A program made the position numbers and the translations under genes. Shown here in pieces: positions 33,745 to 44,924 of a stretch of DNA of 44,924 nt. Below the pieces are notes generated by a model. That model was not told the origin of the DNA. It did no database searches and saw only the letters and a program-made list of their open reading frames with translations. Numbering within the stretch: position 1 is the stretch's first letter; each line of letters starts with the position of its first letter. The stretch is from a virus, in IMG/VR virus record IMGVR_UViG_3300033388_003146, positions 1 through 44,924 of that record. One strand, given 5' to 3'.

Positions 33745-33750
33745 CCAAAC

Positions 33751-33995
33751 AGACGGCGTGGCGGAAAGAGACGCATTTAAGGTGTGAGACTAGCTGATGA
33801 AGCCGTATACGGCGGTCATCTTCAAGAGCCACAGGGGTCGGTAGTGTACTGCTAAGGATACGCTGCCACCTCAGCCTTAAAGTATCAGAAGGTGCATCTT
33901 TTGATTTGCAGGTCGAACATAAAGGACTATACGAGTAAAAGCGTAATTGCTGCGTTCCGTAAGGATTCGTATCTCGTCAAACCCTGCCGCCGTCT
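33751..33995 (+). ncRNA. tRNA-like structured RNA element 1
   Basis: AGACGGCG (33751-33758) pairs with CGCCGTCT (33988-33995). U8-like TG and a D-arm-like GCG/CGC follow. A long arm then replaces the anticodon arm: TTTAAGG and GAG at 33776-33788 pair with CTC and CCTTAAA at 33870-33881. An 8-bp variable-arm-like hairpin lies at 33884-33905. GCAGG (33908-33912) pairs with CCTGC (33983-33987) directly next to the acceptor stem and encloses about 70 nt starting TCGAAC. No CCA is encoded. The termini match element 2. Whether it is an intron-bearing tRNA, a tRNA mimic or another RNA is unknown. Confidence 0.6.
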
Positions 33996-34001
33996 AATTT
34001 T

Positions 34002-34062
34002 TACCACAGTAAATCCCCCGCATAGACGGGTGTGTGGTAGTGGGGTGGGAGACTGCCCCACT
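34002..34062 (+). other. hairpins between the two tRNA-like elements
   Basis: TACCACA (34002-34008) pairs with TGTGGTA (34033-34039) around an inner CCCG/CGGG stem. Next, GTGGGG (34040-34045) pairs with CCCCAC (34056-34061). Neither is followed by a U-tract. They may be processing signals or part of a larger fold. Confidence 0.55.
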
Positions 34063-34071
34063 AAATACAAC

Positions 34072-34197
34072 AGACGGCGTGGCGGAAAAGTAGAACGCAA
34101 TTATCTAAGTCGTGACTGTGAATCTTGTTCGTACAAGATATAGACTCAGGTGGTGTAGGGCCACGATACTGTAGGGTGCAAATCCCTGCCGCCGTCT
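34072..34197 (+). ncRNA. tRNA-like structured RNA element 2
   Basis: The 8-bp end stem AGACGGCG/CGCCGTCT (34072-34079, 34190-34197) matches element 1. It continues with TG, a D-arm-like GCG/CGC (34082-34098) and an expanded arm CTAAGTC/GACTCAG (34105-34111, 34143-34149, one mismatch), topped by ATCTTG/CAAGAT (34122-34139). A short GTGG/CCAC arm (34150-34164) and a T-arm-like GTAGG/CCTGC with loop core TGCAAAT follow. No CCA is encoded and both elements are followed by TAATTTT. The D-arm resembles tRNA-Leu (GTGGCGGAA...ACGC), but no normal anticodon loop is present. Confidence 0.6.
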
Positions 34198-34206
34198 AAT
34201 TTTAAA

Positions 34207-34281
34207 GGGTCTGTAGTTTAATGGCAAAACACTTTGCTCATAACAAAGGTGCTGTTGGTTCGAATCCAGCCAGACCCACCA
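34207..34281 (+). tRNA. tRNA-Met (CAT)
   Basis: The cloverleaf is complete: acceptor GGGTCTG/CAGACCC, anticodon stem CTTTG/CAAAG around CTCATAA (anticodon CAT), T arm with TTCGAAT, and encoded ACCA. An isoleucine tRNA with modified CAT anticodon is a formal alternative. It lies just before the helicase-like gene. Confidence 0.95.
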
Positions 34282-34300: not shown

Positions 34301-35911
34301 ATGGGCGATGTATCCCCAGACATATTCTATAAACTGCTTGGCTATAATGGTGAAACCTTCCTTGTGTGGTCGGTTAGGGCGAAGCAAGTGATTGAGCTAA
34401 CGGCGAAAGAGCTTAGTATCCATGCCAACCTGATGCGTTTTGCTTCCAAGACATATTGGGAGAAAGAATACCCCAATAAATCCGCTACAGATTGGGAGGG
34501 CATTACGAGTGAAATTATTGAACTGTCCTATGCTATTGGAGTGTTTAATCCGCTAAATATCAGGGGGCGTGGCGTATGGCTTGATGAAGGCAGAACCGTC
34601 CTACATCTAGGGCAAGTCCTTGTCGTTGACGATGTGAGGTATGAGATAGGGGGATTTGACACTAATTATATTTACGAAGCCCATCCAACGTTGGATTTAT
34701 ATCAATCCGACAAGGTAGCTACAACGTCAGAGGCCAAGCAGTTCCTTGCTATATGCCAGTCACTTAAATGGGAGCGACCTATAAACGCCTATCTCTTTGC
34801 AGGATGGTGCATGATAGCACCGATATGCGGAGCACTCCAATGGCGACCGCATATATGGCTAACTGGTGAGCAAGGGTCGGGCAAGACGTGGGTAATGGAC
34901 AATGTAGCCAGGAGAATGACGGGCGACATAGCTCTATACACACAGGGCAATACCACCGAGGCAGGGCTTAGGCAGTCTCTCCAGAGGGATGCTCGTCCAG
35001 TCCTTTTGGACGAGGCCGAAGGCAGGGATTCTTTCGCAGAGAGGAAAGTGAAGGGCATACTGGAGCTTGCTAGGCAAGCAAGCTCAGAGTCAGGGGGGCA
35101 GATAGTTAAAGGTACGTCAGGGGGCAAGGCTCAGGTGTACAGTATCCAGAGCTGCTTTATGTTTGCCTCTATCTCGATAGGGATAGAGGAAACGGCAGAT
35201 GCAAGTAGGATTTCGGTACTATCGCTAGTAAAGGCTAACGGGGCAAGTAAGGCAGAAGACCTTAGTAACTTCAAGGAGCTAGAAGAAAGGGTCAGCAAGA
35301 CTTTAACGCCAGAGTATGCGATGAAGCTGCGAGGCAGGGCTATAAAGCTACTAACTATTATCAGACACAATGCCACGATATTCGCAGATGCGATAGCCTT
35401 GCATTTACCTGGCGGACGTAGAACGGGCGACCAGCTAGGGACGCTCCTGGCAGGGGCTTACGCTTTACACCGCAACAATCAATTAACACTCAAGGAAGCA
35501 GAGGCATGGATACTGAAGAGAGATTGGTCGGAGCATACGCCAGAGGACTGCGAGAAAGACGAGAGGTTGTTACTGAAGCATTTAATGGAAACTCCCTTGC
35601 GGTTTGACGGCATAAATGAATTAAGTATAGGTGAGCTAATAGAGAGGTATTGCAGCGACGAGACTACGACTGTTATGGAAAATATTAAGCTAACCTTGCG
35701 TCGCATAGGTATGGATATAGACCTAGAAAAAGAGGTCGTCTGTATTAGCTGCAATCATTCAGCAATAAAGAAGATTCTTAATAATACTAGATGGCATAGT
35801 AACTGGGGGCGTATATTGGAGAGGATACCTAAAACGAAGATTGTCCCTCAGTACCATTTCGGAGTTGGTTCTAAGAGTAAAATGGTAGAGATACCTATAC
35901 AGGAGGTGTGA
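34301..35911 (+). CDS. P-loop ATPase, DUF927-like phage replicative helicase candidate
   Basis: This 536-residue protein has an N-terminal region without clear motifs, then a RecA/AAA-like ATPase with Walker A GEQGSGKT (189-196) and Walker B PVLLDEAE with D237 and E238. The sequence IWLTGEQGSGKTWVMDNVAR is typical of DUF927-type phage/plasmid helicases, which act near origins. The C-terminal third is helical. No primase Toprim motif is visible. GGAGC precedes the ATG. With no phage polymerase found, it may load or assist the host replisome. Confidence 0.82.
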   Translation: MGDVSPDIFYKLLGYNGETFLVWSVRAKQVIELTAKELSIHANLMRFASKTYWEKEYPNKSATDWEGITSEIIELSYAIGVFNPLNIRGRGVWLDEGRTVLHLGQVLVVDDVRYEIGGFDTNYIYEAHPTLDLYQSDKVATTSEAKQFLAICQSLKWERPINAYLFAGWCMIAPICGALQWRPHIWLTGEQGSGKTWVMDNVARRMTGDIALYTQGNTTEAGLRQSLQRDARPVLLDEAEGRDSFAERKVKGILELARQASSESGGQIVKGTSGGKAQVYSIQSCFMFASISIGIEETADASRISVLSLVKANGASKAEDLSNFKELEERVSKTLTPEYAMKLRGRAIKLLTIIRHNATIFADAIALHLPGGRRTGDQLGTLLAGAYALHRNNQLTLKEAEAWILKRDWSEHTPEDCEKDERLLLKHLMETPLRFDGINELSIGELIERYCSDETTTVMENIKLTLRRIGMDIDLEKEVVCISCNHSAIKKILNNTRWHSNWGRILERIPKTKIVPQYHFGVGSKSKMVEIPIQEV

Positions 35912-42948: not shown

Positions 42949-43293
42949 ATGCAGAAGAAAAAAGATACTACTGATAAGGACGATGAGAAAAAAATCCGTA
43001 AGAGTAAACGTACTAAGTGTGTTGCCACTCCTAGCTTTAAGATAGGTGACAGAGTGGTATTAAAGTCCAGCTATGGCAATGATGGTAAATACTTATTAAT
43101 ACTTGTAATGGATGTTGTGCCGGCGTATAGACGAGACAGATTTAAGTACTACGGAAGAATTTTGCAAGTAAACCATCTCAACCGCCAATATATGATTAAT
43201 CATTTAGCTGATTTTTCTAATGGTTATCTTGGGTCTTATAGTATCGCAAACGTACCAGAAGATAGTGTTAAATGGCTAAAGGAGACCCCATGA
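42949..43293 (+). CDS. basic hypothetical protein (114 aa)
   Basis: A Lys/Asp-rich N-terminal tail is followed by a small beta-barrel-like domain (FKIGDRVVLKSSYGNDGKYL). The domain has an SH3-like look, possibly nucleic-acid binding. It starts just after the previous stop and overlaps the next gene. Confidence 0.72.
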   Translation: MQKKKDTTDKDDEKKIRKSKRTKCVATPSFKIGDRVVLKSSYGNDGKYLLILVMDVVPAYRRDRFKYYGRILQVNHLNRQYMINHLADFSNGYLGSYSIANVPEDSVKWLKETP

Positions 43294-43915: not shown

Positions 43916-44924
43916 AACCACGCCCCTACCAGCAAACTGCAATAGACGAGATACGGCTGGCCTATACTCAGGCTTTTCAGTCACCTATCTATGTTGCCCC
44001 TACGGGTAGTGGCAAGACGTTTACTTTTTCCTATATATCCAAAAATGCTTCGCAGAAAGGAAATAATATCTGCATTATTGTCCATCGGCGTGAGTTATTG
44101 CTCCAGACTTCCAATGCTTTGGATAATATGCGTGTGCCACACGGTTTAATCTCCGCTGGCTTCACGAGTAGCAGACAGCAGAAAGTACAGATTGCAAGTG
44201 TGCAATCATTGGCTCGTAGGCTTTGGCAATACCCTGAAGACCATTTCGATTTATTGATTTTCGACGAAGCGCATCATGGCCTAGCTAAGACGTGGGGTAA
44301 AATAATAGGCCATTTTTCTAAGGCTAGATTCTTAGGTGTTACGGCAACACCTGTACGTCTGGACGGCAAGGGACTGAAGGGTATTTTTGATAAAATGATT
44401 GTCGGTGCAGGAATTAAGGAACTTACCGCACAAGGATATCTTGCCCCTTATGTAGCCTATGCTCCCAATATTGGCGTGGACGTTGAAGGCGTACATATCC
44501 GTATGGGTGACTACAGTAAGAAAGAATTGGTGACGAAAACAGATAAACCTACAATAACTGGCTGTGCAGTTAAGCATTATCGTAAATTAGCCCATAAGCT
44601 CCCTGCGATTGCTTTCTGCGTAACTATCGAACACGCAGAGCACGTTGCTCAGGCTTTCCGTGACGGTGGGTATAGGTCAGAGGTCATTCATGGCAAGCTC
44701 ACGTCCTTAGAGCGTAGTCAGATGATTGAGGGCTTGGCTAGTGGAGACATAGATGTGCTTACCAGTTGCGAGTTGATATCTGAGGGCGTGGATATCCCCG
44801 TCGTAACTGTAGCGATTTTGCTTCGCAAGACGAAGAGCTTGGGTCTGTATATGCAACAGGTAGGCCGAGTGCTACGTCCTCATCCTTCAAAAGAGAAGGC
44901 AATTATTATCGACCATGTACGCAA
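43912..44924 (+). CDS. SF2 DEAD/DEAH-type helicase, N-terminal part
   Basis: This is the 5' portion of the gene completed at 2-493. Motif I APTGSGKT (29-36), motif II DEAH (118-121) and motif III TATP (144-147) are visible, along with the start of the second RecA-like domain (VEGVHIRMGDYSKKEL, later ICVTIEHAEH-like strands and ISEGVDIPVV). The whole protein is about 463 residues. It would unwind DNA using ATP in replication or recombination. It begins in an ATGA overlap with the DUF5664-type gene. Confidence 0.94.
   Translation, partial: MKPRPYQQTAIDEIRLAYTQAFQSPIYVAPTGSGKTFTFSYISKNASQKGNNICIIVHRRELLLQTSNALDNMRVPHGLISAGFTSSRQQKVQIASVQSLARRLWQYPEDHFDLLIFDEAHHGLAKTWGKIIGHFSKARFLGVTATPVRLDGKGLKGIFDKMIVGAGIKELTAQGYLAPYVAYAPNIGVDVEGVHIRMGDYSKKELVTKTDKPTITGCAVKHYRKLAHKLPAIAFCVTIEHAEHVAQAFRDGGYRSEVIHGKLTSLERSQMIEGLASGDIDVLTSCELISEGVDIPVVTVAILLRKTKSLGLYMQQVGRVLRPHPSKEKAIIIDHVR
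44811..44924. repeat. terminal repeat copy 2 (circular-map overlap)
   Basis: This is identical to bases 1-114. It lies within the helicase frame, which continues unbroken if 44810 is joined to base 1. Confidence 0.95.

Follow-up and report, generated by a model that had tools for sequence, protein, structure and literature searches.

A family of tRNA-like RNAs with variable inserts in phages, traced from two tandem elements of one phage genome

Phage T4 makes two stable RNAs, species 1 and species 2 (rnaC and rnaD, 139 and 119 nt), which are conserved in many T-even phages and which lie in tandem next to a phage tRNA gene, as do the two elements described here, named E1 and E2. In its predicted fold, species 1 combines a canonical T-arm and a long hairpin in the variable arm with an enlarged and irregular arm at the anticodon position, and it encodes no CCA. 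It differs from the family to which E2 belongs in its U55 (TTCGAAT) and in the poor quality of its end stem; the covariance model of that family (R1, see below) matched neither rnaC nor rnaD, the similarity being one of layout alone. Of known RNAs, T4 species 1 is the nearest analogue of the family, without being a member of it.

Among ordinary tRNAs, the class II tRNA-Leu shares with the family the type of D-arm, U8/A14, A15, G18G19 and a long arm before the T-stem; however, the family has no anticodon arm, its T-stem is of 6 rather than 5 bp, position 55 is mostly G, the acceptor sequence is free and A73 is not fixed. Leucylation as a general function, suggested by the Leu-type D-arm and by A15-U48, was rejected because position 73 varies and CCA is rarely encoded. 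tmRNA also combines tRNA-like ends with other RNA in place of the anticodon arm, and no tmRNA match was found to E1 or E2 (ARAGORN, and Rfam including a permissive scan) or to the family loci (Rfam). As a separate observation, in two uncultivated phage contigs (L055 4498-4803 and L092 4080-4385) a tmRNA, a tRNA-Ser and a tRNA-Met lie just downstream of a primase relative, and T4 rnaC bears an apparent likeness to the phage tmRNA in L055.

Other systems share single features. In the cell-wall tRNA-Gly of staphylococci, GUGC replaces GTPsiC. This is a specialised tRNA kept from translation (PMC4810233); unlike the family members, it retains an anticodon arm and accepts glycine. In the tRNA-like structures of plant viruses (TYMV), viral RNA forms a tRNA elbow anew, with a different topology elsewhere (PMC4810234), but these structures belong to the genome of an RNA virus, are aminoacylated and are unrelated in sequence. 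ROOL and GOLLD are likewise large non-coding RNAs of phages and prophages, far larger than the family elements, with another fold and without tRNA-like ends; in two loci (L104 483-1038 and L139 667-1248), a ROOL RNA lies upstream of a family element at a distance of no more than about 500 nt (0.5 kb).

The family elements were compared with Rfam 15 at gathering scores, and in the loci tested no Rfam family matched. A keyword search of titles and abstracts found no description of the family, and a search of the open-access literature with the family motifs returned one unrelated paper only; an earlier description, especially in subscription journals, may exist.

The two elements in the window

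The window, that is the whole stretch of 44,924 nt that was analysed (IMG/VR record IMGVR_UViG_3300033388_003146), carries a 114-bp exact direct terminal repeat (1-114 and 44811-44924), and the record is therefore a complete, circularly permuted phage genome. The region of interest contains the following features.

33752-33994, + strand: E1, tRNA-like RNA, derived copy, 243 nt (same ends as E2, acceptor pairing, weak model match)
34002-34061, + strand: two strong hairpins in the spacer between E1 and E2 (spacer fold -29.6 kcal/mol)
34073-34196, + strand: E2, 124 nt, full member of the family of phage tRNA-like RNAs (covariance model R1; fold z = -2.7)
34207-34281, + strand: ordinary tRNA with a CAU anticodon and encoded CCA (ARAGORN, Rfam), starting 10 nt downstream of E2

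E1 and E2 have identical 5' ends over 17 nt (AGACGGCGTGGCGGAAA) and identical 3' ends over 19 nt (CCTGCCGCCGTCTAATTTT), as a sequence-only reading had noticed, and these shared ends pair and close each element. That reading had placed the limits at 33751-33995 and 34072-34197 with an 8-bp end stem; the fold of E2 does show 8 bp, but the family alignment gives a 7-bp acceptor, the eighth A-U pair being incidental, and the limits are refined accordingly to those given above. ARAGORN and Rfam at gathering scores found three ordinary tRNAs and neither E1 nor E2; CCA is encoded in all three tRNAs and in neither element, again as first noted. A permissive Rfam scan over E2 gave weak sub-threshold matches only, and its mascRNA-like, psbNH and plant-virus TLS candidates were rejected, all being weak and below gathering scores. 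A simple descriptor combining acceptor, U8, D-stem and T-arm had just three matches in the window, namely E2 and two of the real tRNAs, where 0.09 matches per window are expected by chance. The spacer hairpins at 34002-34061 could be processing signals or another small RNA.

In the unconstrained minimum free energy fold of E2 (-42.4 kcal/mol, z = -2.7), the 8-bp end stem encloses a D-stem of 3 bp and a T-stem of 6 bp, the latter closing a loop of 7 nt. The tRNA-Leu-like D-arm and the replacement of the anticodon arm, both proposed earlier, are seen in this fold and in the family alignment. Its parts are:

34073-34079, + strand: acceptor 5' strand GACGGCG, pairing with 34190-34196 (mean probability 0.97, E2 folded alone)
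34082-34098, + strand: D-arm GCG-GAAAAGTAGAA-CGC, tRNA-Leu type (fold; family consensus GCGGAATAGGTAGACGC)
34099-34168, + strand: variable insert in place of the anticodon and variable arms (interior unalignable in the family; hairpins in the fold)
34170, + strand: conserved U that precedes the T-stem and corresponds to tRNA position 48 (T in 169 of 175 unfiltered and 144 of 144 filtered elements)
34171-34189, + strand: T-arm with 6-bp GTAGGG/CCCTGC and loop TGCAAAT, G55 (fold, descriptor, covariance model)
34190-34196, + strand: acceptor 3' strand CGCCGTC, with no CCA after it (sequence; pairing probability)

E1 has the same frame with two large additions, and its fold has z = -3.3:

33752-33758, + strand: acceptor 5' strand, pairing with 33988-33994
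33776-33882, + strand: large extra arm, a TTTAAGG...CCTTAAA three-way structure at the anticodon-arm position (fold)
33884-33905, + strand: P2 stem ATCAGAAG/CTTTTGAT, with the same end point as in the family, one nt ahead of the conserved U
33908-33987, + strand: T-arm GCAGG/CCTGC; loop of 70 nt, of which about 64 nt are an insertion (sequence; fold)

Six of the seven pairs of the E1 end stem have a probability of at least 0.96 and the seventh about 0.38, whether E1 is folded alone or within the transcript up to E2. The T loop of about 70 nt in E1, described in the sequence-only reading, is borne out by both sequence and fold. In silico, the full transcript gains about 5 kcal/mol from a single composite fold joining the 5' end of E1 to the 3' end of E2; this fold was judged unlikely during transcription because E1 folds on itself first. 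We also considered a mobile element with terminal inverted repeats on account of the shared ends, a reading dropped because these ends are tRNA acceptor, D- and T-arm and because no target duplication was seen.

Relatives were not found at the level of the locus: the 17-nt shared 5' end had four matches in IMG/VR, none with such an element downstream, and kin identified through the primase, capsid, RecT and portal proteins were distant and without the elements, with no syntenic homologue. Concerning the host, the relatives of the capsid, primase, terminase and RecT suggest different groups of bacteria. The primase/helicase gene at 34301-35911 covers only the C-terminal half of its PHROG (profile 414-944 of 968); the relative in a Bordetella phage is a single CHC2 primase of full length, and the N-terminal half was looked for in this phage and not found. 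A helicase gene spans the genome join.

The family and its conserved structure

The unusual T-arm of E2 (GGGUGCAAAUCCC) was the lead to a family in phages and prophages. In a loose BLAST of the elements, Lactobacillus phage LP65 matched over 22 nt of this T-arm, and the site proved to be a tRNA cluster with unannotated tRNA-like elements of the E2 layout, consisting in order of the acceptor GTGCTTG, a tRNA-Leu-type D-arm, an unrelated middle, the T-arm, one extra paired C and the acceptor. BLAST with the LP65 stretch returned similar elements, with conserved ends and different middles, from several groups of phages infecting Lactobacillus and Listeria. Scanning IMG/VR for the conserved D-arm start followed at variable distance by GGTGCAAATCC gave at least 119 stretches with at least 120 elements, and a stricter pattern applied to records with one genome per species gave 74 stretches, most of them from Bacillota and a few from metagenome-assembled genomes belonging to other phyla; collection by pattern favours members near the pattern. 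Members are also present in Bacillus and Enterococcus phages, namely phi3T, SBSphiJ, BSP14 and Enterococcus phage phiSHEF16; the acceptor ends predicted for the SBSphiJ element place it at 43156-43281 of record LT960608. Most elements of the Lactobacillus and Listeria phages are unannotated, and in certain records a 'hypothetical protein' has been placed across some of them. A record labelled 'Hujiaoplasma phage zrk29-2' (OP650937, UNVERIFIED; L107) has GTGCTTG ends and the interior of Lactobacillus-type contigs, and its host label may be wrong.

The common layout runs from a 7-bp acceptor through UG, a D-arm of the tRNA-Leu type and an insert of about 30-170 nt to a U and a 6-bp T-stem with the loop UGCAAAU; acceptor and T-stem add up to a helix of 13 bp. 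As the search patterns ignored acceptor positions 1-6 and the outer T-stem, pairing at these positions could be examined. Among the unique matches listed, the six free acceptor positions are all paired in 133 of 175 (76%), compared with 3.8% after permutation of the partners, and the four outer T-stem positions are all paired in 155 of 175. In an alignment of 63 rows, both sides change in 12 of the 16 pairs (272 cells), and the covariation score is 0.745 against 0.190 for shuffled and at most 0.140 for slid controls; as these rows were preselected for full pairing, the acceptor test on the 175 elements is the unbiased one. RNAalifold, unaided, recovered the same three helices. Compensatory changes, which the sequence-only reading had set as its test, are indeed present across relatives in other phages.

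Bases outside the search pattern are also conserved, with G18 in 142, G19 in 141 and U48 in all of the 144 filtered elements. Together with U8, A14, A15 (with U48), U54, C56 and A58, they are predicted to build the tRNA elbow. Position 55 is mostly G, since a strict scan for U55 gave 9 loci against at least 67 with G55. A further stem, P2, usually carried by the insert, ends at a fixed place one nt before U48 and reaches at least 7 bp in 32% of elements against 4% of shuffled ones. CCA occurs within five nt of the acceptor in 4 of 189 elements, and the discriminator (position 73) varies, being A in 58%. As judged from these comparisons, a predicted tRNA-like body is shown to be under strong structural selection and to carry a variable arm.

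Covariance model R1 was built on 63 members, none of them from the window. E2 matches it with 51.2 bits (E = 2.9e-11); in whole bacterial genomes, matches of ordinary tRNA length score at most 38.7 bits and members mostly 50-85. E2 has the acceptor and T-arm of the family as well as U48 and a P2 stem, here of 4 bp only (TATC/GATA, by eye), and its D-loop holds a single G, the second of G18G19 being missing, as in a few other members (L180, L227). E2 is a member of the family that lacks one D-loop G. E1 scores 12.6 bits, over its 5' part only, and as a whole it is unmatched because of its length and its interrupted T-loop. It has the family acceptor, U48 and, at the place predicted from the family, a P2 stem of 8 bp; its 5-bp T-stem and interrupted loop depart from the family T-arm, and its D-loop is shortened and lacks the tandem G18G19. 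We treat E1 as a putative derived paralogue of E2, with the same ends, U48 and P2, but with an interrupted T-loop and the extra three-way arm. In summary, the option of a new phage RNA family is strongly supported by the many relatives, the compensatory changes and the absence of an Rfam match to elements of the scanned loci.

Placement and modularity

The elements are intergenic, 165 of 177 overlapping no open reading frame above 150 aa. In several temperate phages the element is flanked on one side by a late activator, either of RinA/ArpU type or a sigma factor, and on the other by HNH or terminase genes; in other phages elements lie among tRNA genes. In Listeria phage LP-101 (L109 1222-1647), the element stands between the Rfam RNAs rli62 and mcrA in one leader beside an HNH gene, making this leader a string of non-coding RNAs. 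In phage phiJL-1 (L108 1507-1614), four bases separate the element from the end of the linear genome record, which may indicate a link with the cos end.

Interiors were unrelated in 300 of 340 pairs of elements having the same acceptor, and, conversely, loci L113 and L137 have a common interior while 5 of 7 acceptor positions differ. Interiors and acceptors thus recombine independently. Certain acceptors recur within a host genus, namely GATGTGG in Paenibacillus, GTGCTTG in lactobacilli and TGGCAGG in Leuconostoc (genome loci L232-L305), which may reflect either a reader specific to the host or exchange between phages that share a host.

Proposed role

As the tRNA body is copied and the decoding arm replaced by a variable insert, the family probably consists of stable non-coding RNAs, in phages of many bacteria, with a role other than protein synthesis. 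For E1 and E2, we consider it reasonably likely that they are non-translating, tRNA-scaffolded small RNAs which are processed by the host and whose variable arm is the working part. The element would be transcribed together with the neighbouring genes and tRNAs; RNase P of the host would trim its 5' end, and RNase Z or exonucleases would trim the CCA-less 3' end. The tRNA elbow is a recognition element for RNase P, RNase Z and the CCA enzyme (PMC4810234). A long life of the RNA is expected from its likeness to tRNA, and exclusion from translation from the absent anticodon, the 13-bp acceptor/T helix and the usual loss of U55; given the few members with U55, exclusion by G55 would not be strict. 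The tRNA body would then act as a stable scaffold, and the fast-changing arm would most likely bind or titrate a host factor or RNA; what points to a function of this arm is its variability and the P2 stem. E1, as a diverged copy with an interrupted T-loop, may have lost part of the activity.

An alternative that we find unlikely, though more probable than the other rivals, is that the tRNA-like body itself is active, as a decoy titrating a host protein that binds the elbow or the acceptor (an enzyme of tRNA processing or modification, a synthetase, or a defence protein directed at tRNA), with the insert serving as bulk that keeps the RNA off the ribosome. The almost invariant elbow bases and free interior would fit, as would the acceptors recurring in Paenibacillus (GATGTGG) and lactobacilli (GTGCTTG), but a decoy needs neither a P2 stem at one fixed place nor inserts above 100 nt. 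Among the targets, a synthetase is disfavoured by the unfixed position 73 and the rarity of encoded CCA, and an anticodon nuclease by the missing anticodon arm. Less probable still, the elements could be punctuation, at which RNase P and RNase Z cut a long leader or polycistronic transcript to release a functionless RNA. Several temperate-phage copies do lie in a leader running from a RinA/ArpU-like activator to HNH or terminase genes, and others lie among tRNA genes; for 38 of 177 elements the distance to a tRNA gene is no more than 1 kb. For this purpose, however, a minimal tRNA-like element would suffice, and neither large structured inserts nor the tandem of E1 and E2 would be needed.

Decay of tRNA genes into pseudogenes is very improbable: the interrupted T-loop of E1 and the lost D-loop G of E2 could be read in this way, but the arms are intact in most members and the strong compensatory evolution contradicts such a reading for the family. 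Finally, intron-bearing tRNA-Leu genes, another option of the sequence-only reading, are hardly credible, since despite the Leu-type D-arm and an E2 reading that ARAGORN can be forced to give in intron mode at a lowered threshold, its intron modes at default scores find nothing, none of 1860 single interior deletions of E2 yields a recognised tRNA, and the family has another structure in place of the anticodon arm throughout, no common intron boundary, a 13-bp helix, mostly G55 and no Rfam intron match in the loci scanned.

Returning to tRNA-scaffolded RNAs with a working variable arm, we propose more tentatively, and with somewhat less than even confidence, that they form a large new class of RNA in which the tRNA elbow serves as a scaffold for processing and stability and presents a hypervariable arm, arms and acceptors are swapped like cassettes, and the products act as diversified effectors against host machinery or defences. 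If this is true, a sizeable class of RNA genes is unannotated in many phage genomes, including those of the well-studied phi3T and SBSphiJ, and the covariance model supplied here would allow such genes to be annotated. It would also provide a family context for the unexplained stable RNAs of T4, and tractable systems in which to study the role of viral tRNA mimics in bacteria.
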